A DNA stretch of 55,178 nucleotides, from positions 1-55,178 of the forward strand of contig JAIRUQ010000067.1 of assembly GCA_031254315.1 (NCBI GenBank). The letters are read 5' to 3'. Made by a program: the position numbers and the translations under genes. Positions 13,033 through 42,674 of this stretch are shown one piece after another. The DNA comes from Treponema sp. (lineage in GTDB: Bacteria > Spirochaetota > Spirochaetia > Treponematales > Breznakiellaceae). The notes beneath the pieces are model-generated. The model saw nothing but the letters and a program-made list of their open reading frames with translations, did not search any database and had not been told where the DNA came from. The stretch's first letter is position 1. Every line of letters starts with the position of its first letter.

Positions 13033-14487
13033 TTAATATGCACCCTTTCCTATAAGCACTACGCCGAATGTTTTAAATATTATCCATAAATCAAGCCATA
13101 CAGACCAGCTTTGCAGATAATATATGTCATACGCAACTCTGTCAAGATAATTCGCGTTAGACCTTCCCGATACCTGCCACAGTCCTGTTAGCCCGGGCTT
13201 AACGGAAAAAACACGGTTAAAGTCATCTCCGTATTTTTCAATTTCTTCGTCTACAATGGGACGGGGTCCTACCAATGACATTTCACCCTTTAATATATTG
13301 ATAAGCTGAGGAAATTCATCAAGGCTTGTGCGCCGTAATATTCTGCCTATTCCCGTAATTCTGGGGTCTTTATGAAGTTTATGATTTGTTTCCCATTCTT
13401 CTCTTAGCGCGGAATCTGTCTCCAGCAGTTTTTGTAGTTGTTGCTCGGCATCTACTGCCATAGTGCGAAATTTATATGTATAAAAATGTTTCCCGTTTAT
13501 GCCCAGTCTTTTTTGTTTGTAGAGTACGGGACCGCGTGAGTTTATTTTAATTAATAGCGCAATTATCAGAAGGAAGGGAAGAATTATTATACCGCCAATC
13601 AAAACTACGCAAAGATCCATAAACCTTTTAACTATCAAATTAAAACTTAAGTTGAGTTTATTGCTCGCGTCAATTCCCAGAACACCGTTAAAATCGCGGA
13701 CAGACATCCAAATACTTGATATATTGAAAAAATTGGGGATAATCACATTGTAGCGGAAAGCGCTGACCGATGTATTTAAGAGCTTTTTTAACTTTTTTGG
13801 ATCAAGTGAAGGCTTTGCGACAATCGCCATTTTTATATTGTAACGTTTTACGATTTCATGTCCGACAGAAGTATCGTGAATTATAGGGATATTTTTATAT
13901 TCGTCATCGCCCAGAGGCTTGTCATCCAAAATAAGCACTGGGACATAGCCTGTTCTTATACTGCCCAAGAGACAATCGACAACAAGTTTTCCGGTAGCGC
14001 CGGAACCGTAAATTACAGTGGGAATACCTCCAAGCCTTGTTTTGTACAAAAACCAGTGAGTTACACTTCTTATAGTCAGGAGGACTAGCGTTGAAAAAAA
14101 GCCGCTGATTAAAAACGCAGTGTTAACGGAATCCCACGTGGAGTGTTCAAGAAAACGGGACATGACTATGCCGCCATAAGCTATGAGAGAGCCGACAAAG
14201 AAGCGTCTCATTTCTTCAGATGGGGCGAGGGAAACGCCGGGGTAAAGTCTGTGAATCTGGAAGATCAGGATGAAGACAGGAAGATAAGGCCAGTAGGTGA
14301 TGAAGGACTTTGCGTTGATACTGTCGTAGTCCAGAATAAACCCGTAAATTCTTACCCAAAAGAACCCCCATGCAAAGGTCAGCATTATCGCGAAAAGATC
14401 GGAAAATATGAAGGTTGTAGTGGTTAGCGCGGAACTGGTACGGCGGTATCTGGTTCTGTACCAGACATCAAAATCGCTAAGCGTCAT
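13033..14487 (-). CDS. wbaP: WbaP-type undecaprenyl-phosphate sugar phosphotransferase
   Basis: A membrane enzyme that starts polysaccharide assembly by moving a sugar-1-phosphate from its nucleotide sugar to undecaprenyl phosphate. It has four or so N-terminal TM segments (~22-125), a Rossmann-like middle (PTVIYGSGATGKLVVDCL) and the C-terminal bacterial sugar transferase domain (~285-484). That domain has a re-entrant helix (VVLIGGIIILPFLLIIALLI), YKQKRLGINGK, KFRTM, LRRTSLDEFPQL, MSLVGPRPI and KPGLTGLWQVSGRS. The ending KGAY and the 484-residue length fit WbaP (galactose- or related-sugar-specific), though the sugar cannot be proved. It is the priming enzyme for the reverse-strand locus. 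Confidence 0.9.
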   Translation of the reverse strand: MTLSDFDVWYRTRYRRTSSALTTTTFIFSDLFAIMLTFAWGFFWVRIYGFILDYDSINAKSFITYWPYLPVFILIFQIHRLYPGVSLAPSEEMRRFFVGSLIAYGGIVMSRFLEHSTWDSVNTAFLISGFFSTLVLLTIRSVTHWFLYKTRLGGIPTVIYGSGATGKLVVDCLLGSIRTGYVPVLILDDKPLGDDEYKNIPIIHDTSVGHEIVKRYNIKMAIVAKPSLDPKKLKKLLNTSVSAFRYNVIIPNFFNISSIWMSVRDFNGVLGIDASNKLNLSFNLIVKRFMDLCVVLIGGIIILPFLLIIALLIKINSRGPVLYKQKRLGINGKHFYTYKFRTMAVDAEQQLQKLLETDSALREEWETNHKLHKDPRITGIGRILRRTSLDEFPQLINILKGEMSLVGPRPIVDEEIEKYGDDFNRVFSVKPGLTGLWQVSGRSNANYLDRVAYDIYYLQSWSVWLDLWIIFKTFGVVLIGKGAY

Positions 14488-18266: not shown

Positions 18267-19361
18267 TTATACTCTTTTTCTTTCTTCGATTACTTTTTTT
18301 ATACGCTCTATAAAAGCCGTTTTTGAGAATTGCATTACATGGTCTGTAAATACTTCGCGATGATGGAACCTTCCCTCTTTTTCAAAATAATCCATCGCGC
18401 CTATAAGGGCTTCCGGCGTTTGTTCATCAAAGAAAATTCCTGTAACATTTTCTTTTACCGTCTCAAGCGCCCCTCCGTCACGGTACGCGATTACAGGACA
18501 GCCTGCGGACTGGGCTTCAATAGGCACGAGCCCCAAGTCTTCAATGCCCGGATAGAGCAGGGCGCGCGCACCGGCAAAAAGAGCGGCGGCTTCTTCATCG
18601 GAAACTCTGCCCTTAAAGGTGATAAGACTGTTTTTTGAATATTTTTTAATTTCTTTTTTCTTTGCGCCTGCCCCTGCGATGACCAGCTTTCTTCCCGATC
18701 TGACACAGGCGTCAATCGCGATATCTGCTCTTTTATAACCTGTAAGCTGTCCAAAGAATAAATAATAATCTTGAGGTTTGCGTATAACGTTTAAGTACTG
18801 CTCGACAGGGGCAGGACCGTAAACAACTTCCGCTGTACGGTTGTAACAGCGTATTATCCTTTTTGCTACATATTGCGAGTTTGTAATAAAGCGATCTACA
18901 AGATTAGAAGAAGTAACATCCCATATTCGCAAAGAAGGAATCAGGCGTTTCATAAAAAAACGGACGAAGGAACTTGTTTCCCTAAAATATTCATGGTACA
19001 TATCCCACAGGTAACGCATAGGGCTATGGCAATAGCAGAGGTGATAGGCGTTGGGATTTGCGACAACGCCTTTTGCCGGTCCCGCCTCGCTTGAAATGAC
19101 AAGATCGTACTGCTGTAGGTTAAAGTCCATCAACGCATTAGGCATCAGCGGCATATAGAACTGATAGAGTTTTTTCGCGAACGGAAGGCGGTTTATGCGC
19201 GAAGTAAAAACGCGATGTCCGTTAATAAGAGAGGAGAGCGCTTCGCCGTTATAAACATGGGTATAAATGTCAGCTTCTGGAAACATTTCCAGCAGGGCTT
19301 CCAGCATTTTTTCTCCGCCGCGCATATTAACAAGCCAGTAGTGTATGATTGCTGTTTTCAT
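18267..19361 (-). CDS. Glycosyltransferase family 4
   Basis: A GT-B transferase of 364 residues that adds one sugar to the lipid-linked unit in the cytoplasm. The N-terminal acceptor domain begins IIHYWLVNMRGGEKMLEALL, with the Gly-Gly loop. The C-terminal nucleotide-sugar domain has GRVSDEEAAALFAGARALLYPGIEDLGLVPIEAQ (split pattern E-x7-E), the hallmark of GT4. It overlaps the next upstream gene by four bases. Donor and linkage cannot be read from sequence. Confidence 0.88.
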   Translation of the reverse strand: MKTAIIHYWLVNMRGGEKMLEALLEMFPEADIYTHVYNGEALSSLINGHRVFTSRINRLPFAKKLYQFYMPLMPNALMDFNLQQYDLVISSEAGPAKGVVANPNAYHLCYCHSPMRYLWDMYHEYFRETSSFVRFFMKRLIPSLRIWDVTSSNLVDRFITNSQYVAKRIIRCYNRTAEVVYGPAPVEQYLNVIRKPQDYYLFFGQLTGYKRADIAIDACVRSGRKLVIAGAGAKKKEIKKYSKNSLITFKGRVSDEEAAALFAGARALLYPGIEDLGLVPIEAQSAGCPVIAYRDGGALETVKENVTGIFFDEQTPEALIGAMDYFEKEGRFHHREVFTDHVMQFSKTAFIERIKKVIEERKRV

Positions 19362-20425
19362 TTTAATTCCTCTAGAATTCTTGACGTAGTTTTTTCAAAA
19401 GTATATTTTAACAATAATCCATCAGATAAGACAGGGGAAGATATTAGTCTATTTAATAATAACGCTATAATTTTTTCTTTTAAGTCTTTTGTGTCTCCGG
19501 CTCGGAAAAATGTTATAGGATAATCAGCATAAATTTCCTTAAAAACAGGAATATCCGAAATCAGCGCGTGAGTGCCTAAAACAAGAGCTTCAAGCGGCGG
19601 AAGACCGAATCCTTCATAGAGCGAAGGCTGGATTAGAAGGGCGGCGGTGGCGAGGTATGCCATGAGTTTGTCATCAGATATAAAACCAGTGAATGTTACC
19701 GCATCAACACCTGCGCAGTCAATTTTTTGCAGAATTGAATTATCAGAGGTGCGGAAATTTTCTTTTGAGCCGATAATAATTAATTTATGCGGCAGTCCTT
19801 CATTTTTTGCCAAAAGGAAGGCGTCAAGAAGATAAGCAAGACCTTTATGCTTTTTTATGTTACCGATAAAAACTACAGTTTCAGTTTTTTGCTGTGTTTG
19901 TTTACTACGACGGTACTCAAGAAACATTGGCTGAATTGCAGAATGGGTAACAACGACAGGTTTTCCTCCCCCCAAATGATGCTCTATCCTTGATTTTGAA
20001 AATTGAGATACCGTAAATATTTTTTGCGATTTTTTATACGCCCTGCGATAAAACCACATACGTGCGGACAGACCGGTTTTTGATAAAAGTTCCGGCATAT
20101 CAGGAAAGATAATGTCATGGATAGTGATAAAAACAGGGATTTTTATGCCGCAGGGAATATTGAAAAAAGGAGAGAAAAAAAGATCAAGCTTGTTAATTTG
20201 TTTTGCTAATCTGCCTGGGAAAAAGAGCAATTCCTTTAATGAAAAAGGTTTTATGTTACATTCAATTATTTTTACGTTTGTATTTGAAGAGAAAGAGATT
20301 AACCGCGCCGCATTTCCAAGAAGAAGAAAATCATTCCCCGACTGTAAGAAATAGGGCAGGCATCCCCTTAGGTATGTGCCAATACCGCTTGCGTCTATCA
20401 TACGGCAGTCAATACAGATTTTCAT
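19358..20425 (-). CDS. Glycosyltransferase family 4
   Basis: A 355-residue GT-B enzyme. The N-terminus is MKICIDCRMIDASGIGTYLR, with the short Gly loop typical of mannosyltransferase-like GT4 members. The C-terminal half has VVFIGNIKKHKGLAYLLDAF, FTGFISDDKLMAYLATAALL and PSLYEGFGLPPLEALVLGTH, with the E-x7-E pair. It is translationally coupled to both neighbours (four-base overlap downstream, one-base overlap with the YidC-fusion gene upstream). The sugar specificity is unknown. Confidence 0.88.
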   Translation of the reverse strand: MKICIDCRMIDASGIGTYLRGCLPYFLQSGNDFLLLGNAARLISFSSNTNVKIIECNIKPFSLKELLFFPGRLAKQINKLDLFFSPFFNIPCGIKIPVFITIHDIIFPDMPELLSKTGLSARMWFYRRAYKKSQKIFTVSQFSKSRIEHHLGGGKPVVVTHSAIQPMFLEYRRSKQTQQKTETVVFIGNIKKHKGLAYLLDAFLLAKNEGLPHKLIIIGSKENFRTSDNSILQKIDCAGVDAVTFTGFISDDKLMAYLATAALLIQPSLYEGFGLPPLEALVLGTHALISDIPVFKEIYADYPITFFRAGDTKDLKEKIIALLLNRLISSPVLSDGLLLKYTFEKTTSRILEELK

Positions 20426-23094
20426 TACCTATTCGAAACGGGAGTCCAATTCTCCGCAGAAAAAATATTATCATGGACATAGTAATCTTTTTCAGGGTTA
20501 AGTTTATATTGCGTACCTATCCTTCCTGAAATGTGAACAGAACCGGATATAGCAATATATAACGGCTCTCTTTTTCGTTCAACGGAAATTTTATTACCTG
20601 TAAACGGATTTACAGGATTATCAATTATATTAATTAAACTAAGATATGGTACATCGGCATTTGACATAAAAGACATATCTGTTTTAATTTCACCGTCAGC
20701 ATTAAAATCTTTGACCATTAATAATGGGTTAAAATGATCTACATTAAAAGGCAATCCAATTTTTGTGACAAAGTTTGGTGGTGGTCCGTGATCTGAAACA
20801 AGAATGATTCTGGTATTATCATATACATTTTCTCTCTTTAATAGCTCAAACCATGTTGCCAGACGTTTTAGGGACGCTATATTAATGTGATACGCAGGCT
20901 CTTTGGAAAAGCGGCCGGTGCCGTATTCAGTAACATTTTTTACCGGCACATATTCGGGGGCTTGCATATAAGAATTTTCATGTGTTGTGTTATTTGTCAT
21001 TATCAGCGCAGTATTTTTATTATCATCACTAATTTCAACCAGGCGGGAAATATAATCAAGTACCGAATACCCATTAAGCGAAAGTCTAAGACTGTTCTGA
21101 TTAGCCGGAGAATACCAGTCCCCATCCATGTAAAAAGATTGGCGAATAAAAACAGGCATTCCTTTAAGCAGACTGTACCAAAGCATATTCCGTTTGATGA
21201 TGTCACTCGTTTCCGGTAGCTTAAAATTGTGCTCACTAAGCCAAAGATCGGTATATACTGAATCGGTTAAACGGGCATTTATATCAGGATAATCATCAAA
21301 AATACTTAGATCACTTCTCCAGTTGTAGTTGGCGTAGGGAGGATCAGTAACACAAACAGAGAAATCATTTTCAGATAGTATTCGAGGAAGCATAACAAGA
21401 GCCTCGTTATGTTTTTCAACAAGCAGTGTATTTTCCCGCTTGTTAACTTCTTCAGGCGTGTAATCGTACCCGCCAAATACCGGAGGCGAACCGATTCTGG
21501 TAAAACCGTTAAACGAAACGGTATTAGGATAATATGTAAAACCGGAATATATTTCTTTTAATTCAGGAGCTTCCTCAAAAATAAACGGAACAAAAACGTT
21601 TATTCCTCGATCAAGATTAATTATGACTATGTTTTTTCCGTTTCTGGAAAGCGAAGTAATAGGGGAAATTTCCTGTACTTTTTTCTGTTCATTTACATAA
21701 TATTTTTTTAATTCAGAAAAAGAACTGTTTATTTTATAGATATTAACAGCAGAAATGCTTACAAGAGAAAAAATACAAAGGGAAATCAAGGTAAGTACAA
21801 TGTTTCTGTTTCTAGATAAATAAAGTATAACAGCGAGGGCAATCGGAACAAGCAGTACGCAAAGATTAAGCAGGATTTCCTTGTTACTAGGTTTAATACT
21901 TCCGTCAAAAATAAAATTTATTGATATCATGCCATATTTGTCGGGAAATAAAAATACATTGACCAACAAAGATAAAGAAACGGCAAGAAAAACGACAGAG
22001 AAATATTTTTTGATACTATTTGAAAAAAGAAAATAAATACAGATAGGCCAGAAAACAAACAATCCTAAAACTTGTAAAGAAGTATTAAAAATAAAAAACA
22101 GGGGATTAGTATAATTATCAATAAAAGAAAACTCTTGAGGAGATGACGCTATAAGTTGGGAAGGAATAAAGAGTCCAAAAAGAGAGAACATGAGAAAGAT
22201 TGATACAAGAAAAATGCTAAGCGATTTTTTATATTCATATTCAATCTTGATAATTTTCGTAAATTTATCTTTTAAAAAGACAAATACCCATGGAATAAAA
22301 GCGGTAAAAAAACAGACCGCTGTCAATGTTCGCGCCTTTGAAATATAACTGTATTTGGTCATACAGAAAACAGCCAAGAGAATACAAAAAAAAGAAAAAA
22401 GTACTATTAATGCATGAAATTTATACTTAAGATGTATTTTATAATATATGTTTTTAACAACAGAAAAAATATTATTCATTGTCCAATACAGAACAAGTGC
22501 GGAAGGCATATTGTACAGCAATATCAAAAATATAAACGCAATCAAGAATATTTGTATTTTATCTTTTCCGGGAAGCCCCCTAGAATATATTAAACCGGAA
22601 AGACAATTAATAAACGTCATAACAAACGGAAGCAGATTTATAGAAAAGCCGCCGATTGAAAGCAAACCGTCAGGAGAACTCAAATCCTTGATAAACAAAA
22701 AAGATACACCTTTTATAATTTCCAGATGTGAAAGAAATGAATACGCGGCAATGAAAAACGGAATTTGAATTAAAAGTCCAAAGGTGCTTCTAAGAGCATA
22801 TACGGGATGATAGTGATTCTGCTTATAAAATGTTGACAGAATCATGTACTGTTCATCGCCCTTAAAAACTTTTTTTATTTTGTCAATTTTTGATTTTAAT
22901 TTCTTTTGAATATCACGTTCAATCTGCTGCCATTTTTCAGCGACAGCATACAGTGGAAGTAAAAGTACGCTGATTACAATACTGATAAAAATGATTGAGA
23001 TGCCGCTTTCTCTGAATAACTTTTGTGAGAAAACAAACGAAAATTCAAGAATTTGCGTTATTGGATAGATGATGACGGTAAATAAAATATTCAT
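20425..23094 (-). CDS. YidC/Oxa1-like domain fused to alkaline-phosphatase/sulfatase-superfamily domain
   Basis: 889 residues. Residues ~25-220 match the Oxa1/YidC fold: TM1 with IVISVLLLPLY, a charged helical hairpin (IERDIQKKLKSKIDKIKK), LIQIPFFIAAYSFL and MPSALVLYWTMNNIF. The Arg conserved in insertases (ILIRLLILPL in Bacillus) is Ser42. Residues ~230-455 add about six more TM segments. Residues ~487-889 form an extracytoplasmic hydrolase-like domain: NLDRGINVFVPF, GFTYYPNTVSFNG, a candidate nucleophile Thr532 in GFTRIGSPP, and metal-site motif VSDHGPP (~767-773). LTA-synthase and phosphoethanolamine-transferase enzymes share this fold. It probably transfers a phospho-group to the glycan or lipid outside the membrane. 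It is neither YidC proper nor a simple sulfatase. Confidence 0.85.
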   Translation of the reverse strand: MNILFTVIIYPITQILEFSFVFSQKLFRESGISIIFISIVISVLLLPLYAVAEKWQQIERDIQKKLKSKIDKIKKVFKGDEQYMILSTFYKQNHYHPVYALRSTFGLLIQIPFFIAAYSFLSHLEIIKGVSFLFIKDLSSPDGLLSIGGFSINLLPFVMTFINCLSGLIYSRGLPGKDKIQIFLIAFIFLILLYNMPSALVLYWTMNNIFSVVKNIYYKIHLKYKFHALIVLFSFFCILLAVFCMTKYSYISKARTLTAVCFFTAFIPWVFVFLKDKFTKIIKIEYEYKKSLSIFLVSIFLMFSLFGLFIPSQLIASSPQEFSFIDNYTNPLFFIFNTSLQVLGLFVFWPICIYFLFSNSIKKYFSVVFLAVSLSLLVNVFLFPDKYGMISINFIFDGSIKPSNKEILLNLCVLLVPIALAVILYLSRNRNIVLTLISLCIFSLVSISAVNIYKINSSFSELKKYYVNEQKKVQEISPITSLSRNGKNIVIINLDRGINVFVPFIFEEAPELKEIYSGFTYYPNTVSFNGFTRIGSPPVFGGYDYTPEEVNKRENTLLVEKHNEALVMLPRILSENDFSVCVTDPPYANYNWRSDLSIFDDYPDINARLTDSVYTDLWLSEHNFKLPETSDIIKRNMLWYSLLKGMPVFIRQSFYMDGDWYSPANQNSLRLSLNGYSVLDYISRLVEISDDNKNTALIMTNNTTHENSYMQAPEYVPVKNVTEYGTGRFSKEPAYHINIASLKRLATWFELLKRENVYDNTRIILVSDHGPPPNFVTKIGLPFNVDHFNPLLMVKDFNADGEIKTDMSFMSNADVPYLSLINIIDNPVNPFTGNKISVERKREPLYIAISGSVHISGRIGTQYKLNPEKDYYVHDNIFSAENWTPVSNR

Positions 23095-23097
23095 TAG

Positions 23098-24387
23098 TTA
23101 TTCTCCATAATAAAGCCGGGGGAGAGCCGTTCCCTGCCATGTGATTATAAGGGGTTGCTTCCCGATAGAAACAGAAATGTTTTCAGGAAGTGGACGATTT
23201 TCTCCGGTAGAAATATTGTGAATCTCTGCTTGAGATGACAATTCAAGATTGACTGTTTGGGTTTTGTTTTGATCATTCCATAATACAAGGGTATTATAAC
23301 CTGAGCTACTTTCAAGGAAGCAAAAGGAAACAATATTTGCAGGTATATTTTCTCTTATAGGAAGCTCATTCGCATAACGCGCACCGGACAAATACCTTGA
23401 GCAAAGCGCGTAAGCAAATCCACCGCTCTTTAGAGTTAAATTGGGATACGCAAGCCCAAAGAAATCTTCAGAATTCAAACTGTTACTTCCGGGTTCTCCC
23501 GGATTTCTATAATCAAATAGCTGATACCATAATAATGCCCTCGCTCCACGAGCCGCCGCTCCTGTAATAGTCTTTACAACATGAGAAGGTAATTCCTGTA
23601 AAGATACTCTTGAAGGATAGAAACCTCTTGAAGGATAACCAATCTCGGTAACCCATACATCTCCTGTATAATTAATTTCCGATAAAATATTTAAAAATTT
23701 ATCGTATAATAACATCGAGCCGCGCGGGTTTAAGGCGTAGGGGTGAAATGCAATTCCATCAAGATTTTCAAGAGCTCCTGCCCTGTGCATCCTTATAATA
23801 AAATTCTTTGGAACCCTAAAAAACGCTCCGCCAATAATATAAGAGGCAGGAGCAACTTCCCGTATTCTTTGAGCGGCGGCTCTGGATAAATCATAGAATA
23901 CATTTTTTGGACCGCTCCAAAACCAAATGTTAGGTTCATTCCAAATAGACCAGACATCTACTCTGTCCTTAAAGTGTAAAACGGTTTGTTCAACAAAGTT
24001 AAGATAGTGCGGAATATTTTCCCTTGATATATATTTTTTTCTTTCGCCTGAAGGGAACAACCACGGTGTTTCGTAAGCAAGGACGGCAATAACTTTTTTT
24101 CCCTCTCTATTAGCTGTATTAACATAATCATCATAAGAAGAAAAATCGAATACGCCTCTTTCAGCTTCTATTCTCCTCCAATAAAAAGTACTAAGTATCC
24201 AGTCTACACCAAGATCATCAAGGAGCGCATATTCTTCCGTGGTTCTGGAATCCCCTGCATGAACAAAACCTAAGAAATCATCAGGTACCTTGACGGAACC
24301 GCCTGAAGGAAGAGGCGTTGACGAACAGGATATTATGAATGAAAAAGAAAGCAAGGTAATAATTAACATAAAAATATTTAACTTCAT
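23098..24387 (-). CDS. PslG-like glycoside hydrolase lipoprotein
   Basis: 429 residues with lipoprotein leader FSFIISC (Cys ~21). A (beta/alpha)8 glycosidase of the GH39/GH5-like clan A: acid-base Glu ~152 in SIWNEPN and nucleophile Glu ~249 in VWVTEIGYPS, with HPYAL and LLWYQLFDYRNPGE. A small beta-domain closes the chain (~350-429). PslG-type hydrolases in exopolysaccharide loci trim or release the polymer. Here it is likely tethered in the periplasm. Four bases separate its stop from the fusion gene start, and its start overlaps the upstream gene by four bases. The substrate is inferred to be the locus polymer. Confidence 0.85.
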   Translation of the reverse strand: MKLNIFMLIITLLSFSFIISCSSTPLPSGGSVKVPDDFLGFVHAGDSRTTEEYALLDDLGVDWILSTFYWRRIEAERGVFDFSSYDDYVNTANREGKKVIAVLAYETPWLFPSGERKKYISRENIPHYLNFVEQTVLHFKDRVDVWSIWNEPNIWFWSGPKNVFYDLSRAAAQRIREVAPASYIIGGAFFRVPKNFIIRMHRAGALENLDGIAFHPYALNPRGSMLLYDKFLNILSEINYTGDVWVTEIGYPSRGFYPSRVSLQELPSHVVKTITGAAARGARALLWYQLFDYRNPGEPGSNSLNSEDFFGLAYPNLTLKSGGFAYALCSRYLSGARYANELPIRENIPANIVSFCFLESSSGYNTLVLWNDQNKTQTVNLELSSQAEIHNISTGENRPLPENISVSIGKQPLIITWQGTALPRLYYGE

Positions 24388-25610
24388 TTTTCCCCCGTAT
24401 TTGTCATAAAAGAATATATTCGCTTTCCTGCCTCACTCTGATACTGCCATGCCGTTTTTCGTGCATTTTCGCGCCCTGCCGCAAGTGCGGCGGAATCCCC
24501 GGCATTTTTTATGACATTTGTAATTTTTGGAAAATCTTCTTCTTTCAGTTCAATTCCGGTTTCTTTTATTATTTTGAATTGCCATAATTCATGATCAAGA
24601 TCGTCAGCATCATAAGGACTTGGATCAAAATCAGAATTTACATACAGTACAGGTTTGTTGCGCAGGAACATATAATCAAAAATAATTCCTGAAAAATCAG
24701 AGATCATTATGTCTGCTTTACAAAGAGAATGTATATTTTCACGCTCTGTATCCCATTGAATATTTTTATCGTCTTCGTAGCGTTTTTGCAAACGCTCAAG
24801 CATTGCAGATTCCGATTTTTTTGATTGCGGATGCGGACGGATAATAATGCGCCACTCTGAGTCCCTCAGTGGGTCGAGTAGCTTTTCACCGTAACGGGCT
24901 AAAAGCGCGGATTGACCCCATGACGGCGATACAAGGACAGTAAAAGGATGTTCTTCTTCCGCAGGGATTTGTTTTATTTTTTCCGCATATACGTCAAGAT
25001 ATGAACAGCCAACGGTAACAAGCTGTTTTTCAGGTAGTCCGCGCTGTTTTTCAAGAATGCGAATATCATCGGCTTGATAATCTCCTGTTAAAAGTACCGA
25101 ATCAAAATAATCAAGTCCGAACAGCCGGTATGCTGTGGCATCAGAAGGGGCATGCAGTATATGAGAATAATGGTTAACTGTTTTTGAGCGTTTTAATTGA
25201 TAAACTTGCAAACCCGGAGTAGTCATTAAAATAATTTCGGCTGAAATAAAATTAAGGTGGGCAAACGCTTTATTTCCTTCGCCGATATATTCGGGTTTTA
25301 TATATTCCCATGAATTTTCAAAAACCGGATCATCTTCTGCGGAAGTTAGATACCGAAGTTCTGTTTTATTTTGTTCAAATTCCTCAACTACAGGCTTAAA
25401 AACATTCCAATACTGCTTTGCTTCACAATAAATAACATATTTCCAATTATAATTTGCGGATGAAGATATTTTCCCGCCTGAAAAAAATATTTTTAGTTTT
25501 AGAATAAGAGCGCGTACTAAAAAGTATAGCGTAGCGGCGGCTCCGACAAGCACAGAGAACAGTACACTGCCGGTTCCCGGATCAATGTAAAGCGGATATA
25601 GATTAAACAT
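24384..25610 (-). CDS. CDP-glycerol-type glycerophosphotransferase
   Basis: 408 residues, TagF/TagB family: moves glycerol-phosphate (or a similar polyol phosphate) from its CDP form to a glycan. An N-terminal TM helix (SVLFSVLVGAAATLYFLVRAL) anchors it. The catalytic half has VLVSPSWGQSALLARYG, IIRPHPQSKKSE and ADIMISDFSGIIFDYMFLRN (split across the family motif), with His and Asp/Ser in the expected places. No CDP-glycerol synthase (TagD) is in the window, so its donor is made elsewhere or is the product of the IspD-like enzyme at 36385. Confidence 0.87.
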   Translation of the reverse strand: MFNLYPLYIDPGTGSVLFSVLVGAAATLYFLVRALILKLKIFFSGGKISSSANYNWKYVIYCEAKQYWNVFKPVVEEFEQNKTELRYLTSAEDDPVFENSWEYIKPEYIGEGNKAFAHLNFISAEIILMTTPGLQVYQLKRSKTVNHYSHILHAPSDATAYRLFGLDYFDSVLLTGDYQADDIRILEKQRGLPEKQLVTVGCSYLDVYAEKIKQIPAEEEHPFTVLVSPSWGQSALLARYGEKLLDPLRDSEWRIIIRPHPQSKKSESAMLERLQKRYEDDKNIQWDTERENIHSLCKADIMISDFSGIIFDYMFLRNKPVLYVNSDFDPSPYDADDLDHELWQFKIIKETGIELKEEDFPKITNVIKNAGDSAALAAGRENARKTAWQYQSEAGKRIYSFMTNTGEK

Positions 25611-25612
25611 TA

Positions 25613-26887
25613 TTACTCCTGTATAAGCCAGTCTGCAAAATCCTGCAAACCGGCAAAAGTTTTGACGTTTGTATCTTCAAAATGTTCCTTCTTTGACAAA
25701 TATACCGGAATACATCCGGCATTAATCCCCGCCTGAATATCTCGGTTATCATCGCCTGCCATATATGAGCTTGAAAGATCGATGTTGTATTTTTGCGCCG
25801 CTTTCAATATCATTCCCGGTTTGGGCTTTCTGCAATCACAGTCAATTTTGTATTCAGGCCGCTCGCCGGGGAAACCTTTGTCGGGATGATGGGGGCAGTA
25901 AAAAAGATCATCAATGTATGCGCCTTGTTTTCCAAGATCGGTTTCCATTTTCATGTGAATAAGATCAAGCGTTTCAAAATCAACTTCGCCACGCGCAATG
26001 ACCGGCTGGTTGGTAATAACAATGGCAAGGTATCCAAGATTGTTGATTTTTTTAATAGCTTCCGCAGAACCGTCAATCAAATCAAAATCTTGCGGTTTAG
26101 TTACAAACCCGTTAAAGGTGTTAATCGTTCCGTCTCTGTCAAGGAAAACAGCTTTTTGTTTCATGCTAAGATTTTTTCCGTGTACAATACCGTTTTCAAT
26201 ATCTGCTGTAACATGGGCATAACGCTCTGGAGTACCCATGTCTTTGATGTATTCAGGAGTGTGATAGGCAAAAATTCGCCCTTTTTGAATCGAAGGTTTT
26301 AGCATATCACGGTCAAGATCGATTTTTTCTTTTGACTGCGGACAATTTTTCAAAAATTCTATTGACAGGATATGAACTCCGGCATTGACAATATTTTTAT
26401 AATAAGTACGCTCATCTTCTTTGTTTAGCCAGCCTGTAACGCGAGCGTTATTGTCGGTTATAATTAAAGAGCTGTCAAAGGGATGGCTGTTGGGATGGAC
26501 AGCAAGCGTAACTTGAGCCTTTTTTTCTTTATGAAAAGCAATCATGCGTGAAAAGTCCATGTCAAGAATGATATCGCCATTAAGTAAAATAAAATCGCCT
26601 AAAAGATTGTCAAGTTTGTACAACATTCCGGCGGTTCCAAGCGGTTCATTTTCAGTATAATATTTTATGTTACACCCAAATTTGCTACCATCGCCAAAAT
26701 AATCTTTTATATGTTGACCTAGATGTCCAACTCCAATGATAATATCCGTTAAACTGTTTCTTTTTAATACTTCAATTTGATGTTCAAGAATAGGCTTGCC
26801 GCATATTGGGATCATCGGTTTGGGAATGTCACCGGCAATGGAAGCAATTCGAGTACCTTTTCCTCCAGCCATTATTATCGTTTGCAT
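25613..26887 (-). CDS. Fused heptose-1-phosphate guanylyltransferase and heptose-bisphosphate phosphatase (HddC-GmhB)
   Basis: 424 residues with two enzymes of the GDP-D-glycero-D-manno-heptose route. Residues 1-~235: nucleotidyltransferase with IIMAGGKGTRI, KPMIPICGKPILEHQI and LNGDIILDMDF (HddC-like). Residues ~240-424: HAD phosphatase with FLDRDGTIN, ITNQPVIARGE, zinc-site CPHHPDKG...CDCRKPKPGM and AGDDNRDI, as in GmhB, which removes the 7-phosphate. It is flanked by gmhA (one-base overlap) and hddA, so the branch is complete. The two activities are often separate genes; here they are fused. Confidence 0.9.
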   Translation of the reverse strand: MQTIIMAGGKGTRIASIAGDIPKPMIPICGKPILEHQIEVLKRNSLTDIIIGVGHLGQHIKDYFGDGSKFGCNIKYYTENEPLGTAGMLYKLDNLLGDFILLNGDIILDMDFSRMIAFHKEKKAQVTLAVHPNSHPFDSSLIITDNNARVTGWLNKEDERTYYKNIVNAGVHILSIEFLKNCPQSKEKIDLDRDMLKPSIQKGRIFAYHTPEYIKDMGTPERYAHVTADIENGIVHGKNLSMKQKAVFLDRDGTINTFNGFVTKPQDFDLIDGSAEAIKKINNLGYLAIVITNQPVIARGEVDFETLDLIHMKMETDLGKQGAYIDDLFYCPHHPDKGFPGERPEYKIDCDCRKPKPGMILKAAQKYNIDLSSSYMAGDDNRDIQAGINAGCIPVYLSKKEHFEDTNVKTFAGLQDFADWLIQE

Positions 26888-27513
26888 CAGAAAAAATGAT
26901 CCTCAAGCATCATACAGATGACATGATATACAGGCAAATGTAATTCCTGAACTTTCCATGTTTCAGTTTCCGGTACGCAGATATTTACGTCAGAATATTG
27001 TTTTAATTTTCCGCCGCCTTTGCCTGTCAAAGCGATTATTTTTAATTTCTTTACACGTGCGACTGCTGTAGCATAGAGCACATTTTTTGAATTGCCTGAA
27101 GTGGAAATGGCGAGCAATACATCGCCCTCATTTCCGTAACCATAAACTTGCTGAGCAAAAGTTATGTTCCCGTCAATATCATTTATACATGCGGTATTTA
27201 AAGAAGCATGTCCTGAAAGCGCGATAGCCGGAAGACCGGGTTGCATGCGGGGGACGAGATAATCGGCAATTTCAGAATCAACTTTCTTGATTTCAGAAAT
27301 GAATGATGCGGGTAAATCCCTTTTTTTTGAAAAGGTTTTCATCAATTCACCTGCGATATGTTCAGCGTCAGACGCACTACCGCCGTTACCTGCAATTAAA
27401 AGTTTTCCGCCACCGGCATAAGATTGCAATATAATTTCAAAAGCAGAATTAATATCATCCTTAACCTGAGAAAGCTGGGGATAACGTTCGATTAATTGTT
27501 GTAAATAGTCCAT
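26887..27513 (-). CDS. gmhA: Sedoheptulose-7-phosphate isomerase
   Basis: 208 residues, SIS-domain isomerase making D-glycero-D-manno-heptose 7-phosphate from sedoheptulose 7-phosphate. Motifs: [20 protein letters not shown] (phosphate loop with catalytic Glu/His), [15 protein letters not shown] and [11 protein letters not shown]-terminal His ([17 protein letters not shown]) completes the site. GAGGAA precedes the ATG. The start overlaps the end of hddA by 22 bases. First step of the heptose branch. Confidence 0.93.
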
Positions 27514-28523
27514 GCCTGTGTTCCTCTTTCGGTAAAACTTGGGGTAAGAACCATACCGTCCTTTTCTTTGAGAGCGCGGATAAGCGAAATTCTGTTACAG
27601 GGATTACAATAGATCATCATAAAGCCGCCGCCGCCCGCGCCCGAGATTTTTGCCGATTCTGCTCCATGAGAAAGCGCGTATTGGTATAACTCATCCAAAA
27701 ATGAATTTGAAATAGAGGCGGCTACATTTCTCTTTGCAAGCCAGCCGTTCAAAAGACAATTTGAAAAACCTTTGAAGTCCCCTTTTAATAAGGCTTCTTT
27801 CATTAAGAGCGACTGGTTTTTCATTTCGTGCATACTTTCGATATTCTTATTGTCGCCTTTTTGTGTATGTTGAATCTGTTCTTTAATAATGTTCGCGCTT
27901 TCCCGTGATACTCCTGTGTAGTATAAAACCAGTGAGGCTTCAATTTCATTTCTGATCCAGCGTTTGAGCCGTAGCGGATTTACTATAACACGCTCATTTT
28001 CATAAAACTCCATAAAGTTAAAGCCGCCGAATGTAGCCGCGTATTGATCCTGCTTGCCGCCCGCGAGAGAGGCATCCTCACGCTCAATTTGATAGGCAAG
28101 GGCGGCAATATCGTATTCGCCTAACGGAAGATTCAGCCACTCTTCAAACGCTTTTATAATAGCGACAACCATAGTCGAAGAAGAGCCAAGACCGGAGCCT
28201 GCAGGCGCGTCTGAGTAAGTAGTCATCTTGAAGGATAAAGGTTTTTTGACAAAATCAGAAACAATTCTGTTATAGATGCATGTATGCAAGGGCAGGGAAG
28301 GGGAGAACGGAAGTTTTTCCCCTGCGTCGTATTCTTCTTTTTTATTTATATCGGCGGCGATAAATTCAACCTTGCCGGTCTCATTTGGTTCAATGGTACA
28401 GTAGGCGTACATGTCAACTGTTGCGTTTAACACATAGCCGCCGTAACGGTTGTAGTAGTTTGCGATGTCAGTGCCGCCACCAGCAAGACCAAGACGAAGC
28501 GGCGCTTTAGAGCGAATTATCAT
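27492..28523 (-). CDS. hddA: D-glycero-alpha-D-manno-heptose-7-phosphate kinase
   Basis: 343 residues, GHMP-kinase family, phosphorylating heptose 7-phosphate at C1. N-terminal [22 protein letters not shown] loop [17 protein letters not shown]-terminal [15 protein letters not shown]. All three GHMP motifs are intact and the length is normal. AAGGAAG precedes ATG 28523, which overlaps the end of the PntC-like gene by 17 bases. With GmhA and the HddC-GmhB fusion it makes GDP-heptose. Confidence 0.92.
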
Positions 28524-30327
28524 TTAATACTTCCTTAAGACGGGTTATAAATGTATTATTGTCTTCCGTTCCCCGTATAGCAATTCGTACATAGCTGTCA
28601 TCGGGTATTCCGGTTTTTCCGGTAAGGTCTTTGATAAATATTTCGTGTTTATCAAGTAAGATTTCAGTTAACAAGGGCGCACAAATGCCGTTAAACTTAC
28701 AAAGAAAATAGTTCGCTTGCGACGGATAAACTTCTACAGCATCAATTTTATCAAGTAATGACTTGATGCGACTGCGTTCCTTAGCTATATTTTTGCATGA
28801 TTCTTTGTAATCTTTTTGATATTTACCGATTATCTGCAAGAAATATTCCCCAAAAGAATTTATATTCCATATTGAAAGATGTTTTCTTATTTGTTTTATA
28901 AGTTCCTCATCACCGCAGGCAAGTACGCCAAGACGAATTCCCGGCACCCCGTAACTTTTGCTTAAAGACTTAACAATAATTATATTAGGAAAATTATTTA
29001 AAATATCCTGACGCAACAACGATGGGTTTTCTTCTGTATCTGAAAAATCTATAAAAGATTCATCAAGTATAAGTTTTTTTCCCTCGGACTTAAGTGTTGA
29101 AGCAAGATCAACCACATCGTTATGTAATATATAATTACCGGAAGGATTGTCAGGATTGATAAGGATAATGGTATTACAATCTTTCGACAGAGTTTTTAAC
29201 TCAGAGGCAGTATACGAAATATTCTGCGGAATATAGCGTACAACTTCTCCTCCGGCGGCGGCAAAAGATTCCTCATATTCGTTAAAAGTGGGATAAATGA
29301 CGCCAATTTTTCCCTTGATTACCAATGCAAGTGCGCGAATTAATTCTGCGGCGCCGTTGCCAATGAGTATTTGTGATTCATCTATATTGTAAAGTTTAGC
29401 GCCCAGTAAATTCTGCATATTAAGACCTGACGGATAAGATGATAAAAGTTCACGAAATGACGCTTTCATTTCTAATTCCATTTGCTTTGGAGGAAAATAA
29501 GGATTTACTAAATAGCAAAAATCCAGCATAGAAGGATAACGCCAATATCCGCCATAGGCATCTTGGATACGTTTTAGTTTTTCTTTTGGCGAGGCGCAGA
29601 ATATGGTTTCAGCTATATATTTATCCTGAGCATCATCAATCTCGTACCATTTTTGTCCTGTTAAAACAAATGCTTTTAATTCACTGTTATCAAGTGTTGT
29701 AATGACACGTAAAACCTGTTCATAATATTCGTTATTACCCATAGCGCAAGAATATGCTTCTAAAAACGGAACATAAGTATTTTTTAGAAAATCGCGGGAA
29801 AATTTATAAATATTAACTGTTTTGTAATAAGAAGAGCTTTCATCAAAATTAAACATTTTTTTTGGAATAAAAGCAGAAATATTTTTATCTTCCGTAAGTT
29901 TTACTACAGTTCCGTCCATCCAGCTTTCAAAACTTGCAACAGCCGCAATTGTCGGATTAGCGTCATTGATCATTTCTTGAATAATCCGGCTTTCAAATAT
30001 TAAGTCGCTTTCCAAAAGAAGCGTATCATCTTGCAGTAAATATTCTTTTGCAAGATATAAAGAATAAATATTGTTTGTTTTATCATATATATCGTTGGAT
30101 ACATAAATAATGTCAACATTTTTATAGCGATTTCCTAAAAATGCGATAAGATTTTCTTTTTTATATCCTACAACAATGATACATTTACGAATCCCCGCAT
30201 CGTTCAATGCGTCAAGAGCGTGTTCGGCAAGTGTTTTCCCATTTATGGGAAGCATACACTTTGTATTGTCCTTTGTGTACTTTCCTAATCTGTTACCCAT
30301 ACCTGCCGCAAGAATTATCGCCTGCAT
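28507..30327 (-). CDS. PntC-like cytidylyltransferase/aminotransferase fusion
   Basis: 606 residues from ATG 30327 (AAGGAG before it; the longer reading to 30348 lacks a site). Residues 1-~235: LicC-like nucleotidyltransferase ([43 protein letters not shown]). Residues ~240-606: fold-type I PLP enzyme of the histidinol-phosphate-aminotransferase group ([29 protein letters not shown] Lys ~457 in SLSKSYG, RIAIRG). The same two-domain order is known in PntC, the CTP:2-aminoethylphosphonate cytidylyltransferase/transaminase studied in Treponema denticola. It likely makes CMP-AEP or a related CMP-amino-alcohol for LicD. PepM and Ppd are not in the window. Confidence 0.82.
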
Positions 30328-30401
30328 GATGTTACTCCTTTTTTCCATTATTTGTCATTTTGTATATTCTCATATTATTATACACCATCAACATCATATT
30401 A

Positions 30402-34508: not shown

Positions 34509-35312
34509 TTATGCATCCTGAAATTTTATATATAATGGATTATGAGTCTCTCGTTTTTCAACGGGCGGTAACTCCATATAGTTACCGTATACTTCTGTAA
34601 GGAACAAGTCAAAATTGCATGGTGCATAATATTCATTCCCCTCAAAAGAAACTTTTGAAAGAGGAAGTAATTCGCTGTATTTATGTGTTTCCTTTTTATA
34701 ACCATATCTAGCTGAAAAAAACGAAATGTGTTTTGTCTTAAATTTATTAAACAGTATATGCAGTTTAAAATGCAAGGTATTTAAAAATTTAGCAGAAAAA
34801 AAGAGGCATAATATTCCGCAGATTATGCGCTTGTATCTTTTTTTTGAAATAACAATTTTTGCTTTATAACGAAACAGCTTTAAAATAAATCTTATTAGTT
34901 TTGTTTGTACAGGTGCAAAAAAGAGTACGCAATTATCAAATGGAAAAATATCAATATATATTCCTGAATACATTGACGGATTGACAAATTTATCGGCAAA
35001 AACAGTACCTTTTTTACAAAGTTTTGCAAATTGATTGTTATGATCTACAATTTGTAGTGATCTATATGAAAGAGTATAATAATTTGAATTATTATTTTTA
35101 TCATATATATCAAGAAACTTTTCATAATCGCTTCGTGGCATCGCGACATCAATATCATCATCCCAGGGAATAAAACCTTTGTGTCTGACAGCTCCGAGCA
35201 AAGTTCCTCCTGTTAAAAAATAAATAAGATTATTTTCTTTACAAATATGGACAAATTCATTTAATATTTCAAGCATAACACCACGAAGTTTGTTCATAGT
35301 TTCCTGTTCCAT
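34509..35312 (-). CDS. licD: LicD-family phosphotransferase
   Basis: 267 residues. The LicD core is clear: YFLTGGTLLGAVRHKGFIPW followed by DDDIDVAMPRSDYEKF, a nucleotidyltransferase-fold active site with the DxD pair. LicD enzymes move phosphocholine, or with PntC partners aminoethylphosphonate, from the CDP/CMP form to a sugar. It is close in sequence to the second copy at 37099, so the two are duplicates, separated by the SDR and IspD-like genes. Confidence 0.87.
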   Translation of the reverse strand: MEQETMNKLRGVMLEILNEFVHICKENNLIYFLTGGTLLGAVRHKGFIPWDDDIDVAMPRSDYEKFLDIYDKNNNSNYYTLSYRSLQIVDHNNQFAKLCKKGTVFADKFVNPSMYSGIYIDIFPFDNCVLFFAPVQTKLIRFILKLFRYKAKIVISKKRYKRIICGILCLFFSAKFLNTLHFKLHILFNKFKTKHISFFSARYGYKKETHKYSELLPLSKVSFEGNEYYAPCNFDLFLTEVYGNYMELPPVEKRETHNPLYIKFQDA

Positions 35313-35321
35313 TTTTTCTCC

Positions 35322-36374
35322 TTATTGATTATAATGCAAAATATCTATAGTTCTTATGATGCCGTCTTTTATCGGATACAATGCTTCCCATCCAAGCCTG
35401 TAAATTTTTGAATTGTCCAATAAGGCTTTAGTCGCTTTTGAATAACCGGAGGATTCCAGTGAAGACGGAATATCAAAGACAATTTTCTTGCCTGTATAAT
35501 CAGAAAAAATATCAGCAATTTGTAACAATGATAAATTACAATCAGGTTCACAAACATTATATGCTTCGCCTTTTTTTCCGTTTAGTAGCAAAGTAAGCAA
35601 AGCGGAACAAGCGTCAGCTACATAACAGTATGAATATTGTTGATCGCCTTTACTTTTTAACGTGATATTTTCACCCATTACTGCATTTTTAATAAACTGA
35701 GCAATTACCTTACTGTCATCATCTCCCATAGTTGGACCATAGATACGGCAACATCTTGCAATTACAATGTCAATATTTTTTTCTTTTATATATGCCTGGC
35801 ATAATGCTTCGGCGGTGCGTTTACCTTCGGGATAACCGGCACGCAATGTATTACAATTTATATAGCCGCAATAATCTTCATTAAAAGATTCAACGTCTCC
35901 GCGATTTTCTCCGTAAATCTCAACAGTAGAAAGAAACAGCGTGCGTTCTACATTCTGAATTGAAGCAAAATCAAGAACGGATTTTGTTCCGAGCACGGAA
36001 AGCAAAATTGTGTTTATTGGTTCAGTCGCATAGGCGATAGGGTGTGTATTGCTAGCCCCATGAATGATATAATCAATAGGAGCATTTAAATTTATTTCTT
36101 TTTGTATATCATGTTCAATAAAAAAAAAGCAATCAGAATCAAAATATTCATTAAACCGTGTAAAAGCTTTTTCTTTATTTCTCCCCATTGCGTATATTAT
36201 GATGCCATCATTATAATTAATATTTCGATACATCAATAAATCAACTAAAAAAGTACCGATAAGTCCTGTTGCACCGGTAACAAGTATTTTCTTGTTCTTC
36301 AGTTTATTCCAGTCAATGTTGCCGGATGCGATTAGGTGAATATCTTTTTTGTAGAAATCATTGGCTTTGAACAT
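35322..36374 (-). CDS. NAD-dependent epimerase/dehydratase (extended SDR)
   Basis: 350 residues. Nucleotide loop ILVTGATGLIGTFL; catalytic Tyr/Lys in AGYPEGKRTAE (YxxxK); FLSTVEIYGENRG supplies the Ser/Thr; ARCCRIYGP follows. The fold fits UDP-sugar epimerases or decarboxylases. Its place between LicD and an IspD-like cytidylyltransferase matches loci making CDP-activated polyols or sugars, so a reductase or epimerase acting on that substrate is likely. The exact substrate is unknown. Confidence 0.8.
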   Translation of the reverse strand: MFKANDFYKKDIHLIASGNIDWNKLKNKKILVTGATGLIGTFLVDLLMYRNINYNDGIIIYAMGRNKEKAFTRFNEYFDSDCFFFIEHDIQKEINLNAPIDYIIHGASNTHPIAYATEPINTILLSVLGTKSVLDFASIQNVERTLFLSTVEIYGENRGDVESFNEDYCGYINCNTLRAGYPEGKRTAEALCQAYIKEKNIDIVIARCCRIYGPTMGDDDSKVIAQFIKNAVMGENITLKSKGDQQYSYCYVADACSALLTLLLNGKKGEAYNVCEPDCNLSLLQIADIFSDYTGKKIVFDIPSSLESSGYSKATKALLDNSKIYRLGWEALYPIKDGIIRTIDILHYNQ

Positions 36375-36384
36375 CGTTTATTTC

Positions 36385-37095
36385 TTATCTATATGATTTT
36401 GAATGTTTCATCATGGCTCTGAAAATTTCAATATCATCGGCAGTGGTAATCTTAATGTTTCTATCAGAACCGGAGGCAAAATATAATATTTCACCAAGTT
36501 CAACCATCATTGTATTGGTATAAGATGATCCAAAAATGCCAATTTCGTTTTCAAAAGCTTTTTTATAACAATCATACAATTTTCCCAGTTTATATGCCTG
36601 CGGCGTTTGGACACGGCGTAGTGTTTCCCTTGGTATGTATTCAGTGCTGGTTAATCCGTCGTTTGTTCTAAATATTTGTTCATTGTATGGAAGGCTGGAA
36701 ACTGCGTTTCCAAATTTACTGCATACCTTAATACAATCGGAAACAACAGACTCTTCTATAACCGGGCGTATTCCATCATGGATAATGACAATGTCATCTT
36801 TATTGCAATGTTTGTATAAATCATAGACTCCGTTGCGAATTGATTCTTGACCGGTCTCTCCGCCGGTTGTAATCCATTTTAATTTCGATATGCCGAATTT
36901 CTGAGCATAAGCGGTTACTGTTTCCTGCCATCCGTCAAGGCATACCAGTTCTATGGCATGTATATCAGGGTGTACCTCGAAACTTTCCAGTGTATACACA
37001 AGAATAGGTTTACCGTCAATATCGACAAACTGTTTGGGAATTTCCTGTTGTGCTCGTTTGCCGGTTCCTCCGGCGATTATTAGTGCTATGTTCAT
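36385..37095 (-). CDS. IspD/TarI-like cytidylyltransferase
   Basis: 236 residues. ALIIAGGTGKRAQQEIPKQF (CTP loop with Lys), DIVIIHDGIRPVIEESVV and PRETLRRVQTPQAYKLGKLY are all family motifs, and the length is normal. In a polysaccharide locus beside an SDR and LicD genes it more likely makes a CDP-polyol (as TarI, or the pneumococcal CDP-polyol enzymes) than the isoprenoid precursor. It can feed the LicD or glycerophosphotransferase enzymes. Confidence 0.82.
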   Translation of the reverse strand: MNIALIIAGGTGKRAQQEIPKQFVDIDGKPILVYTLESFEVHPDIHAIELVCLDGWQETVTAYAQKFGISKLKWITTGGETGQESIRNGVYDLYKHCNKDDIVIIHDGIRPVIEESVVSDCIKVCSKFGNAVSSLPYNEQIFRTNDGLTSTEYIPRETLRRVQTPQAYKLGKLYDCYKKAFENEIGIFGSSYTNTMMVELGEILYFASGSDRNIKITTADDIEIFRAMMKHSKSYR

Positions 37096-37098
37096 AAA

Positions 37099-37986
37099 TT
37101 ATTTAGGGATATTATCTTCTACATTCTCAAAAATAATATAGAAAGGCTTATGTGTTACTCGTTGTTCAATAGGCGGTAATTCCATATAATTTCCATAATA
37201 ATGTGTTAAATAGATATCCCAGTTACCCGGAACACAATACTGTTTTCCCTCAAATTCAAGTTTTGTAAGCGGAAATATTGTATCGTATCGGTGAGTTTCT
37301 TTCTTATAGCCACATAAACCAGAAAAAGAGGATATATAACGAGTATTAAATTTATTAAACAGAGTAAAAAACTTATTACTTAAGATAAAAAGTAATTGTT
37401 TAGGGAAAATAAAAAATATTAATCTAATAATAACTTTTTTAATTTTTGCCTTTGGAATATCTATATTATTTCGTAAAATATATGCCTGCCGTGTAAAAGA
37501 AATTAGTTTTCTTTGAGGAACAAGAAGAGAGCGTATGCAATTATCAAAAGGCTTAATATCAATCCATATTCCTGTATAAGCGTCAGGATTTTTTTCACTC
37601 TCAGCAAATACAGTATCTTTTTTGCAGAATTTTGCAAAAGTTCTATAGTGATGGGGTGAAGTAATCGAACATCTGTTTGAGAGCAAATAATATTTAGTGT
37701 TATTTATTTTATCGTAAATGTCTACAAATTTTTCATAATCATTTCTCAACATCATAACATCTATATCATCATCCCAAGGGATAAATCCTTTATGTCTGAC
37801 AGCTCCAAGCAATGTCCCATATACTAAAAAATAGGTAAGATTATTTTCTTCACATACACGGACAAATTCATCCAATAACTCAAGTAGAACTGTACGAAGT
37901 TTGATGGTAGTTTCTTGATCCAATTCTTTTGTTACTTTTTCTTTTAAAGTTTCTGTTTTATTTTGGTCGTTTGTATTTTTCTCCAT
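37099..37986 (-). CDS. licD: LicD-family phosphotransferase, second copy
   Basis: 295 residues. YFLVYGTLLGAVRHKGFIPW then DDDIDVMMLRNDYEKFVDIY, plus the C-terminal YGNYMELPPIEQRVTHKPFY, match the copy at 34509. A ~20-residue charged N-terminal extension (NTNDQNKTETLKEKV) is extra. It is the first intact polysaccharide gene after the defence island, and its start lies inside the end of a broken gene. This makes it the boundary of the island. Confidence 0.87.
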   Translation of the reverse strand: MEKNTNDQNKTETLKEKVTKELDQETTIKLRTVLLELLDEFVRVCEENNLTYFLVYGTLLGAVRHKGFIPWDDDIDVMMLRNDYEKFVDIYDKINNTKYYLLSNRCSITSPHHYRTFAKFCKKDTVFAESEKNPDAYTGIWIDIKPFDNCIRSLLVPQRKLISFTRQAYILRNNIDIPKAKIKKVIIRLIFFIFPKQLLFILSNKFFTLFNKFNTRYISSFSGLCGYKKETHRYDTIFPLTKLEFEGKQYCVPGNWDIYLTHYYGNYMELPPIEQRVTHKPFYIIFENVEDNIPK

Positions 37987-42522: not shown

Positions 42523-42545
42523 GCTATTTCTCCGCTTTTATATTT

Positions 42546-42674
42546 TCATTGCTGACTATGATAACAAACAAACTCTGTTTCTTTTGGATAAACATCTTCC
42601 AGCATATGCCTTGCTGTAGTTAAATCACTTTTAGAATACTTTAACCACTCTTTTGCAAGATCAACTGCGTTCAT
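42546..42674 (-). pseudogene. Truncated HEPN-domain protein, partner of MNT
   Basis: 42 codons: MNAVDLAKEWLKYSKSDLTT, then ARHMLED and EFVCYHSQQ, and a TGA. In HEPN toxins CYHSQQ is followed by the AEKxLKA helix and the R-x4-6-H site; both are missing. It overlaps the MNT gene by 14 bases as usual for MNT/HEPN pairs. The break lies just before the DUF262 ribosome-binding site. Confidence 0.7.

Follow-up and report, generated by a model that had tools for sequence, protein, structure and literature searches.

What does a protein do that joins the fold of a membrane insertase to an enzyme of the alkaline phosphatase superfamily, within a glycan locus? The question arises from an 889-residue YidC-phosphatase fusion encoded in a 55,178-nucleotide stretch of Treponema sp. 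DNA (assembly GCA_031254315.1, contig JAIRUQ010000067.1, positions 1 to 55,178), which we call the window and whose spirochaete we infer to be of gut origin. The best explanation, to which we assign a probability of about 45%, is a charge-flip-transfer decoration system, in which a TagF-like partner would load a head group onto a membrane lipid, the YidC half would carry that lipid across the membrane and the outer enzyme would pass the head group on to a glycan. The fusion and its parts are laid out as follows.

20425..23094, minus strand: YidC-phosphatase fusion gene, 889 amino acids
22432..23094, minus strand: YidC/Oxa1-fold half, residues 1-221
22969..22971, minus strand: codon of Ser42, the groove-charge position
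21685..22422, minus strand: linker of seven transmembrane helices, residues 225-470, from hydropathy and the structural model
20428..21657, minus strand: alkaline-phosphatase-superfamily half, residues 480-889, predicted periplasmic
21499..21501, minus strand: codon of Thr532, the presumed nucleophile, Thr in all 50 members compared

An earlier note on this DNA had observed the fusion and named both folds; the observation is confirmed, and comparison with known structures supports the two assignments. The YidC fold and profile are present in the N-terminal half, which opens straight with the core domain and is joined to the enzyme. Seven more transmembrane helices follow it according to family-averaged hydropathy and charge distribution, and in the predicted structure they span residues 225-248, 252-281, 288-317, 332-356, 359-382, 404-426 and 430-470. 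The phosphatase domain is predicted to lie outside the cell membrane. The whole fusion gives a confident single structural model, and the domain order is identical in 48 aligned homologues.

Structure matches to the outer domain (LtaP, 19.7; LtaS, 18.7; MCR-1, 18.4; EptC, 18.3) place it at the level of the superfamily only, sulfatases scoring alike. Residues D495, T532, H705, D768 and H769 are invariant in the phosphatase half, of which 35 of the 50 were aligned, and T532, D495, D768 and H769 are each unchanged in all 50 members. By analogy with LtaS and EptA, Thr532 is presumed to be the nucleophile, and we take the Asp and His residues to have the metal-site roles familiar from the same enzymes. 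The C/SxPxR signature that an S1 sulfatase has at its nucleophile is missing: the formylglycine-type motif [CS]xPxR is found at the nucleophile region of none of the 50 members, one of which has such a motif elsewhere in its phosphatase half.

In the YidC half, Ser42 aligns with the Arg of B. halodurans YidC2 (BhYidC2) that we take to be the groove residue. Ser (65), Thr (59) or Asn (25), and never Lys or Arg, fills this position in 149 distinct YidC domains of the fusion family, and the two unfused relatives have Asn, whereas 24 housekeeping YidCs from the window's phylum all carry Lys (21) or Arg (3); a 25th housekeeping row (L134) was dropped, the longest open reading frame (ORF) there being another protein. 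The loss of the groove arginine, which the earlier note had read from the window protein, is thus borne out across the family. Compared with YidC/Oxa1/Alb3 insertases such as BhYidC2 and E. coli YidC, the fusion family is marked, beyond its lack of a positive groove residue, its fused enzyme and its core-domain start, by R102, T160, N207, S211 and K214; fusion ORFs shorter than 840 amino acids among the GTDB loci were left out from this comparison onward. A 72-row tree, thinned by dropping alternate rows among the first 36 of the family, places the fusion and unfused forms in a clade apart from housekeeping YidC (SH-aLRT, the Shimodaira-Hasegawa-like approximate likelihood ratio test, 100), and the window's YidC half does not group with its host's housekeeping YidC. 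The latter is a 625-residue open frame on contig C111. PF02096 is matched in 25 of 26 genomes searched, and housekeeping YidC is also present in all 20 of the system-bearing genomes among them. Because the clade is separate and these 20 genomes each keep a housekeeping copy, the fusion YidC is a sister branch and not the general insertase of the host; replacement of the host insertase was rejected on the latter ground.

Conservation within the fusion is highest in the YidC half. Among 50 members, identity averages 56.2% there, 28.5% in the linker and 37.3% in the phosphatase half, and in every one of the 1225 pairs of these members identity is higher in the YidC half than in the phosphatase half. 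Its core is conserved at least as well as that of housekeeping YidC, with mean identities of 52.5% and 47.7%, respectively, and a higher value for the fusion in 123 of 153 pairs from 18 genomes, two of which have unfused forms. Tandem fusion paralogues each retain their own YidC half. One tandem pair shares 94% identity between its YidC halves and 51% between its phosphatase halves, with matches at 41 of 75 and 31 of 64 fourfold sites, respectively; across six tandem pairs, agreement at such sites is 31-59% for the YidC half and 23-48% for the phosphatase half. The contrast in conservation is therefore mainly the result of selection, and recent gene conversion was rejected as the main cause of the near-identical YidC halves.

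The strongest clue to function is the near-constant pairing of the fusion with a TagF-like transferase, found in the window close to the fusion.

24384..25610, minus strand: TagF-like CDP-alcohol phosphotransferase (GlyphosT, PF04464; CDP, cytidine diphosphate) with an N-terminal transmembrane helix and a YxDPGxGS motif, the usual partner of the fusion

The window's partner scores 35.3 bits against PF04464 (cut-off 22.1), has RPHP and SDFSG-type motifs, and by profile matches the TagF-like capsule polymerase Cps3D (E 2e-7). Among the 41 partners aligned, from 71 found, RPHPQ is invariant, as is YxDPGxGS, which heads the N-terminal hydrophobic stretch. Because basic residues follow that stretch, YxDPGxGS is perhaps at the outer face of the membrane, where it may contact the fusion.

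For the window's phylum the pairing was measured in 296 genomes, a genome being called system-bearing at a best E below about 1e-40, a threshold picked by hand (the weakest accepted match has E 1.2e-46). A full or partial match to the fusion occurs in 68 genomes, in two of them unfused. Fusion and partner are found together in 65 genomes, the fusion alone in three (G159, G171, G175), the partner alone in one (G222, which is 66% complete) and neither in 227 (Fisher p 1.3e-60, uncorrected for shared ancestry). The nearest fusion-partner pair in 64 genomes is separated by no more than 200 bp in 40 and no more than 10 kb in 57, by 12 kb in one, and lies on different contigs in six, this count being made without G222, G291 and some second copies. 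Where copies are unambiguous, in 34 of the 68 genomes, 54 fusions accompany 39 partners, and 11 of these genomes have several fusions with one partner. In one locus (L037), four fusion copies surround a single TagF-like gene, and the flanking sugar genes are the same as in the window.

A scan of GTDB found relatives of the fusion in at least 582 of at least 592 pattern-matched stretches, some of which may match one half only; the locus counts given here and below are for the best 77 loci of those relatives. Of the 77, 57 contain the partner, as do 50 of the 61 that span 12 kb or more, and it is a same-strand neighbour of the fusion in 45 of the 77; in the first 21 loci, the window and 20 others, it is clustered with the fusion in 16. 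Most of the 77 are in records named Treponema or other spirochaetes, with further records from Schwartzia succinivorans (L122), Butyrivibrio, Lachnospiraceae and Oscillospiraceae. The closest relatives among the matches listed are Treponema and Spirochaetaceae assemblies, whose best segments reach 64%, and three of 398 genomes in the phylum to which the Butyrivibrio record belongs are positive (E<=1e-30), two of these being known positives. The fusion thus recurs in spirochaetes and some Bacillota, with as many as four copies in a locus, and is not a chance event.

Two loci (L048 and L049) carry the same parts unfused: consecutive genes encode, in this order, a YidC-like protein (238 or 286 amino acids), the partner and a membrane protein of sulfatase fold (607 or 594 amino acids). 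We regard the occurrence of both halves and the partner as consecutive separate genes in two genomes as good evidence for a joint function of all three. These genes adjoin genes for phosphoenolpyruvate (PEP) mutase, phosphonopyruvate decarboxylase (Ppd) and PntC-aminotransferase; in L048, the one separate-gene locus searched with Pfam, the matches are PEP_mutase, CTP_transf_like, a TPP (thiamine pyrophosphate) enzyme, Aminotran_5 with NTP_transf_3, 60KD_IMP, Glyphos_transf and Sulfatase. In the 72-row tree the two unfused YidC rows branch beside fusions of one family, with weak support (82). In a further two loci (L059, L106) a YidC-like ORF precedes a shortened fusion ORF (725 and 747 amino acids), which may reflect split genes or frame errors of assembly.

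The neighbourhood also points to a source of head groups. In the window this is a bifunctional gene.

28507..30348, minus strand: LicC/PntC-like cytidylyltransferase fused to a CobD-like phospho-amino-acid decarboxylase

Its first half matches LicC and the nucleotidyltransferase/class V aminotransferase 6pd1, which we take to be PntC, and its second half a threonine-phosphate-decarboxylase-like enzyme, so that its product is probably CDP-ethanolamine (or CDP-aminopropanol); among open-licence PubMed Central papers, a search on CobD-type synthesis of CDP-ethanolamine gave unrelated work only. Such a cytidylyltransferase-CobD-like fusion occurs in 15 of the 77 loci, relatives of phosphonate genes (PEP mutase, Ppd or PntC-aminotransferase) also in 15, and one locus has both donor types, giving a phosphonate or cytidylyl-activation gene in 29 of 77 (neighbours were labelled by best BLAST match to reference proteins at E<=1e-8 with at least half of the reference covered, and the labels are not curated names). 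In Treponema bryantii (L062), two fusions, the partner and the CobD-type cytidylyltransferase occur in one locus. The predicted products of these nearby genes are CMP-aminoethylphosphonate (CMP, cytidine monophosphate) or, probably, CDP-ethanolamine, and the guess at phosphoethanolamine or phosphonate made in the earlier note gains support from them; the glycan setting it described gains support as well.

Donor type can be followed on the trees of the three parts, using loci with exactly one of the two donor types. On 33 matched loci the donor label requires five changes on the partner tree (0-1 of 500 shuffles as low), eight on that of the YidC half (21-27 of 500) and nine on that of the phosphatase half (68-70 of 500), and in a larger unmatched set the partner again requires five, on 35 rows (0 of 500). 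The partner tracks donor type best, and the fusion halves less so.

Lipid supply was considered in the same genomes. The window genome (127 contigs) has no match to PF02666, the phosphatidylserine decarboxylase family, and its only match to PF01066 is PgsA (TIGR00560 135.3 bits, cut-off 109.1); the phosphatidylethanolamine donor of EptA enzymes therefore seems to be absent there, unless another route to it exists. As 49 of the 68 system-bearing genomes likewise give no phosphatidylserine decarboxylase match, this usual donor is not general among them, which sets the system apart from transferases of the LtaS/EptA type. A stricter rule, that the fusion occurs only where phosphatidylethanolamine synthesis is lacking, was rejected, the remaining 19 genomes having the decarboxylase.

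These results fit a four-step scheme. Enzymes of the cytoplasm would first activate a head group with CMP, the product being CMP-aminoethylphosphonate in some genomes and probably CDP-ethanolamine in that of the window; the membrane-anchored TagF-like partner would then transfer this phospho- or phosphono-head group to a lipid of the inner leaflet, releasing it from CMP; the YidC half, its groove charge lost, would take the charged lipid in its polar groove to the outer leaflet; and the fused outer domain, with its LtaS/EptA-like Thr and metal site, would hand the head group over to a sugar on the exported glycan. Where several fusion paralogues have outer domains for different acceptors, a single charging enzyme could supply them all. 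The scheme fits the domain identities, predicted topology, family-wide loss of charge, pairing, donor context and pattern of conservation. That a branch of YidC/Oxa1 has become a dedicated lipid flippase for glycan decoration, its uncharged groove passing the TagF-like-charged lipid to the fused transferase, we propose more tentatively, at somewhat less than an even chance. According to a preprint (PMC10491306), E. coli YidC scrambles lipids in liposomes.

Known systems offer partial parallels. The Gtr and Arn systems combine lipid charging, flipping and transfer at the outer face, a logic shared by the scheme proposed here. It has been set out with sugars for S. mutans in PMC11754754, where SccN, a flippase and SccM are the corresponding parts. 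In contrast to all three, the fusion system would move a phospho- or phosphono-head group instead of a sugar, with a TagF-like charger and a flipping part of YidC fold fused to the transferase. Relative to LtaS/LtaP, EptA/MCR, OpgB/OpgE and GacH/SccH, the fusion adds the N-terminal YidC half, the seven-helix linker and the TagF-like partner. It shares PEP mutase, Ppd or PntC-aminotransferase relatives with the phosphonyl tailoring clusters that contain PntC, in the 15 loci mentioned and in both split genomes, but the window enzyme has a CobD-like half in place of the class V aminotransferase half. The excerpts of PMC6697681 call the steps after PEP mutase enigmatic and do not contain the word sulfatase.

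Some observations weigh against the charge-flip-transfer scheme. No donor gene of the kinds sought is present in 48 of the 77 loci. To a degree the fusion halves track donor type too: in the unmatched set the donor label requires 12 changes for the YidC half (10-15 of 500 shuffles as low) and 11 for the phosphatase half (4-7 of 500), on 48 rows each. In five of the six tandem pairs fourfold sites are somewhat more alike in the YidC half, part of whose likeness may be due to old gene conversion, and lipid handling could fall to the seven-helix linker in place of the YidC half. Phosphatidylserine decarboxylase is, as noted, present in 19 system-bearing genomes. Three genomes have the fusion with no detected partner, and none is nearby in 20 of the 77 loci, several of them short contigs; four loci from three genomes of one family (f24; L045, L046, L047 and L052) have neither partner nor donor genes nearby. 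As these loci show, the fusion is not always in a recognisable glycan locus. The earlier note's reading is partly supported: the folds, charge loss, glycan setting and head-group guess gain support, and the lipid that it placed in the YidC groove is a conjecture.

The outer domain may instead work like LtaS, EptA and SccH and take phosphoglycerol (or phosphoethanolamine) directly from a common phospholipid; the YidC half would then be a mere membrane dock for a partner that decorates the glycan separately in the cytoplasm. We consider this unlikely, though by no means far-fetched: the structure matches are to LtaP, LtaS, MCR-1 and EptC, and phosphatidylglycerol should be available because PgsA is present, so that the outer domain could draw its donor from it like SccH of S. 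mutans, which is said to use phosphatidylglycerol in PMC11754754, where the flippases are called unknown. Such an account leaves unexplained both the presence of the partner in 65 of 68 fusion genomes and the top conservation of the YidC half. That half might still be a protein insertase or chaperone, for its own outer domain or for the single transmembrane helix of the partner, as its retained fold and well-conserved core would allow; this is improbable given a groove charge missing from all 149 distinct domains, a housekeeping YidC in all 20 system-bearing genomes searched and a separate YidC copy in each tandem paralogue.

We attach similarly little weight to a hydrolytic role of the outer domain, in which it would trim or recycle glycan or lipid as a phosphodiesterase, phosphonate monoesterase or sulfatase; sulfatases score as well as transferases in the structure comparison, but [CS]xPxR is missing from the nucleophile region throughout and Thr532 is invariant, as in transferases. 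A chance fusion or annotation artefact, for which one could cite only that the phosphatase half of the window protein alone scores under the Pfam cut-offs, is barely credible beside the shared domain order, the many relatives and the confident single model, and was rejected.

If the flippase reading is true, the fusion system would fill in the final steps still lacking from aminoethylphosphonate and phosphoethanolamine tailoring, both in gut spirochaetes and in some Bacillota. The family also offers candidates for the transfer steps that follow CMP-aminoethylphosphonate in surface phosphonate synthesis. YidC is universal and taken to be a protein insertase, though lipid scrambling has been seen in vitro; a charge-less, strongly selected YidC family joined to an enzyme of lipid-using type provides a test of the insertase groove as a lipid path in cells. 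No description of a YidC-phosphatase fusion was found in the open-licence PubMed Central literature, judged by titles and the starts of abstracts, and within that literature the parts are of known kinds while their combination and the proposed use of a YidC fold are undescribed.

The remaining features of the glycan locus are as follows.

18267..20425, minus strand: two GT4 glycosyltransferase genes (19358-20425 and 18267-19361), directly downstream of the fusion
23098..24387, minus strand: PslG-like glycoside hydrolase, accessory (PslG 4zn2, E 6.2e-10)
25613..28523, minus strand: nucleotidyltransferase-HAD fusion (25613-26887), sugar isomerase-like gene (26887-27513) and sugar kinase-like gene (27492-28523)
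13033..14487, minus strand: WbaP-type polyprenyl-phosphate sugar transferase (TIGR03022 436.1 bits, cut-off 403)
within 34509..37986, minus strand: two LicD genes (34509-35312 and 37099-37986)
within 34509..37986, minus strand: short-chain dehydrogenase/reductase gene (35322-36374) and IspD-like cytidylyltransferase (36385-37095)

Relatives of the genes at 25613..28523 adjoin the fusion in other genomes; the name of the nucleotidyltransferase-HAD gene has a Pfam basis, and those of the isomerase-like and kinase-like genes are our presumption. Relatives of the PslG-like hydrolase are found in three of the 77 loci (L054, L066 and L089). The WbaP gene is adjoined by one for a DUF6675 protein (12247-13032), and AAA ATPase, GmrSD-type and AbiEii-type genes cluster at 40188-43664, possibly as a defence or toxin-antitoxin island.

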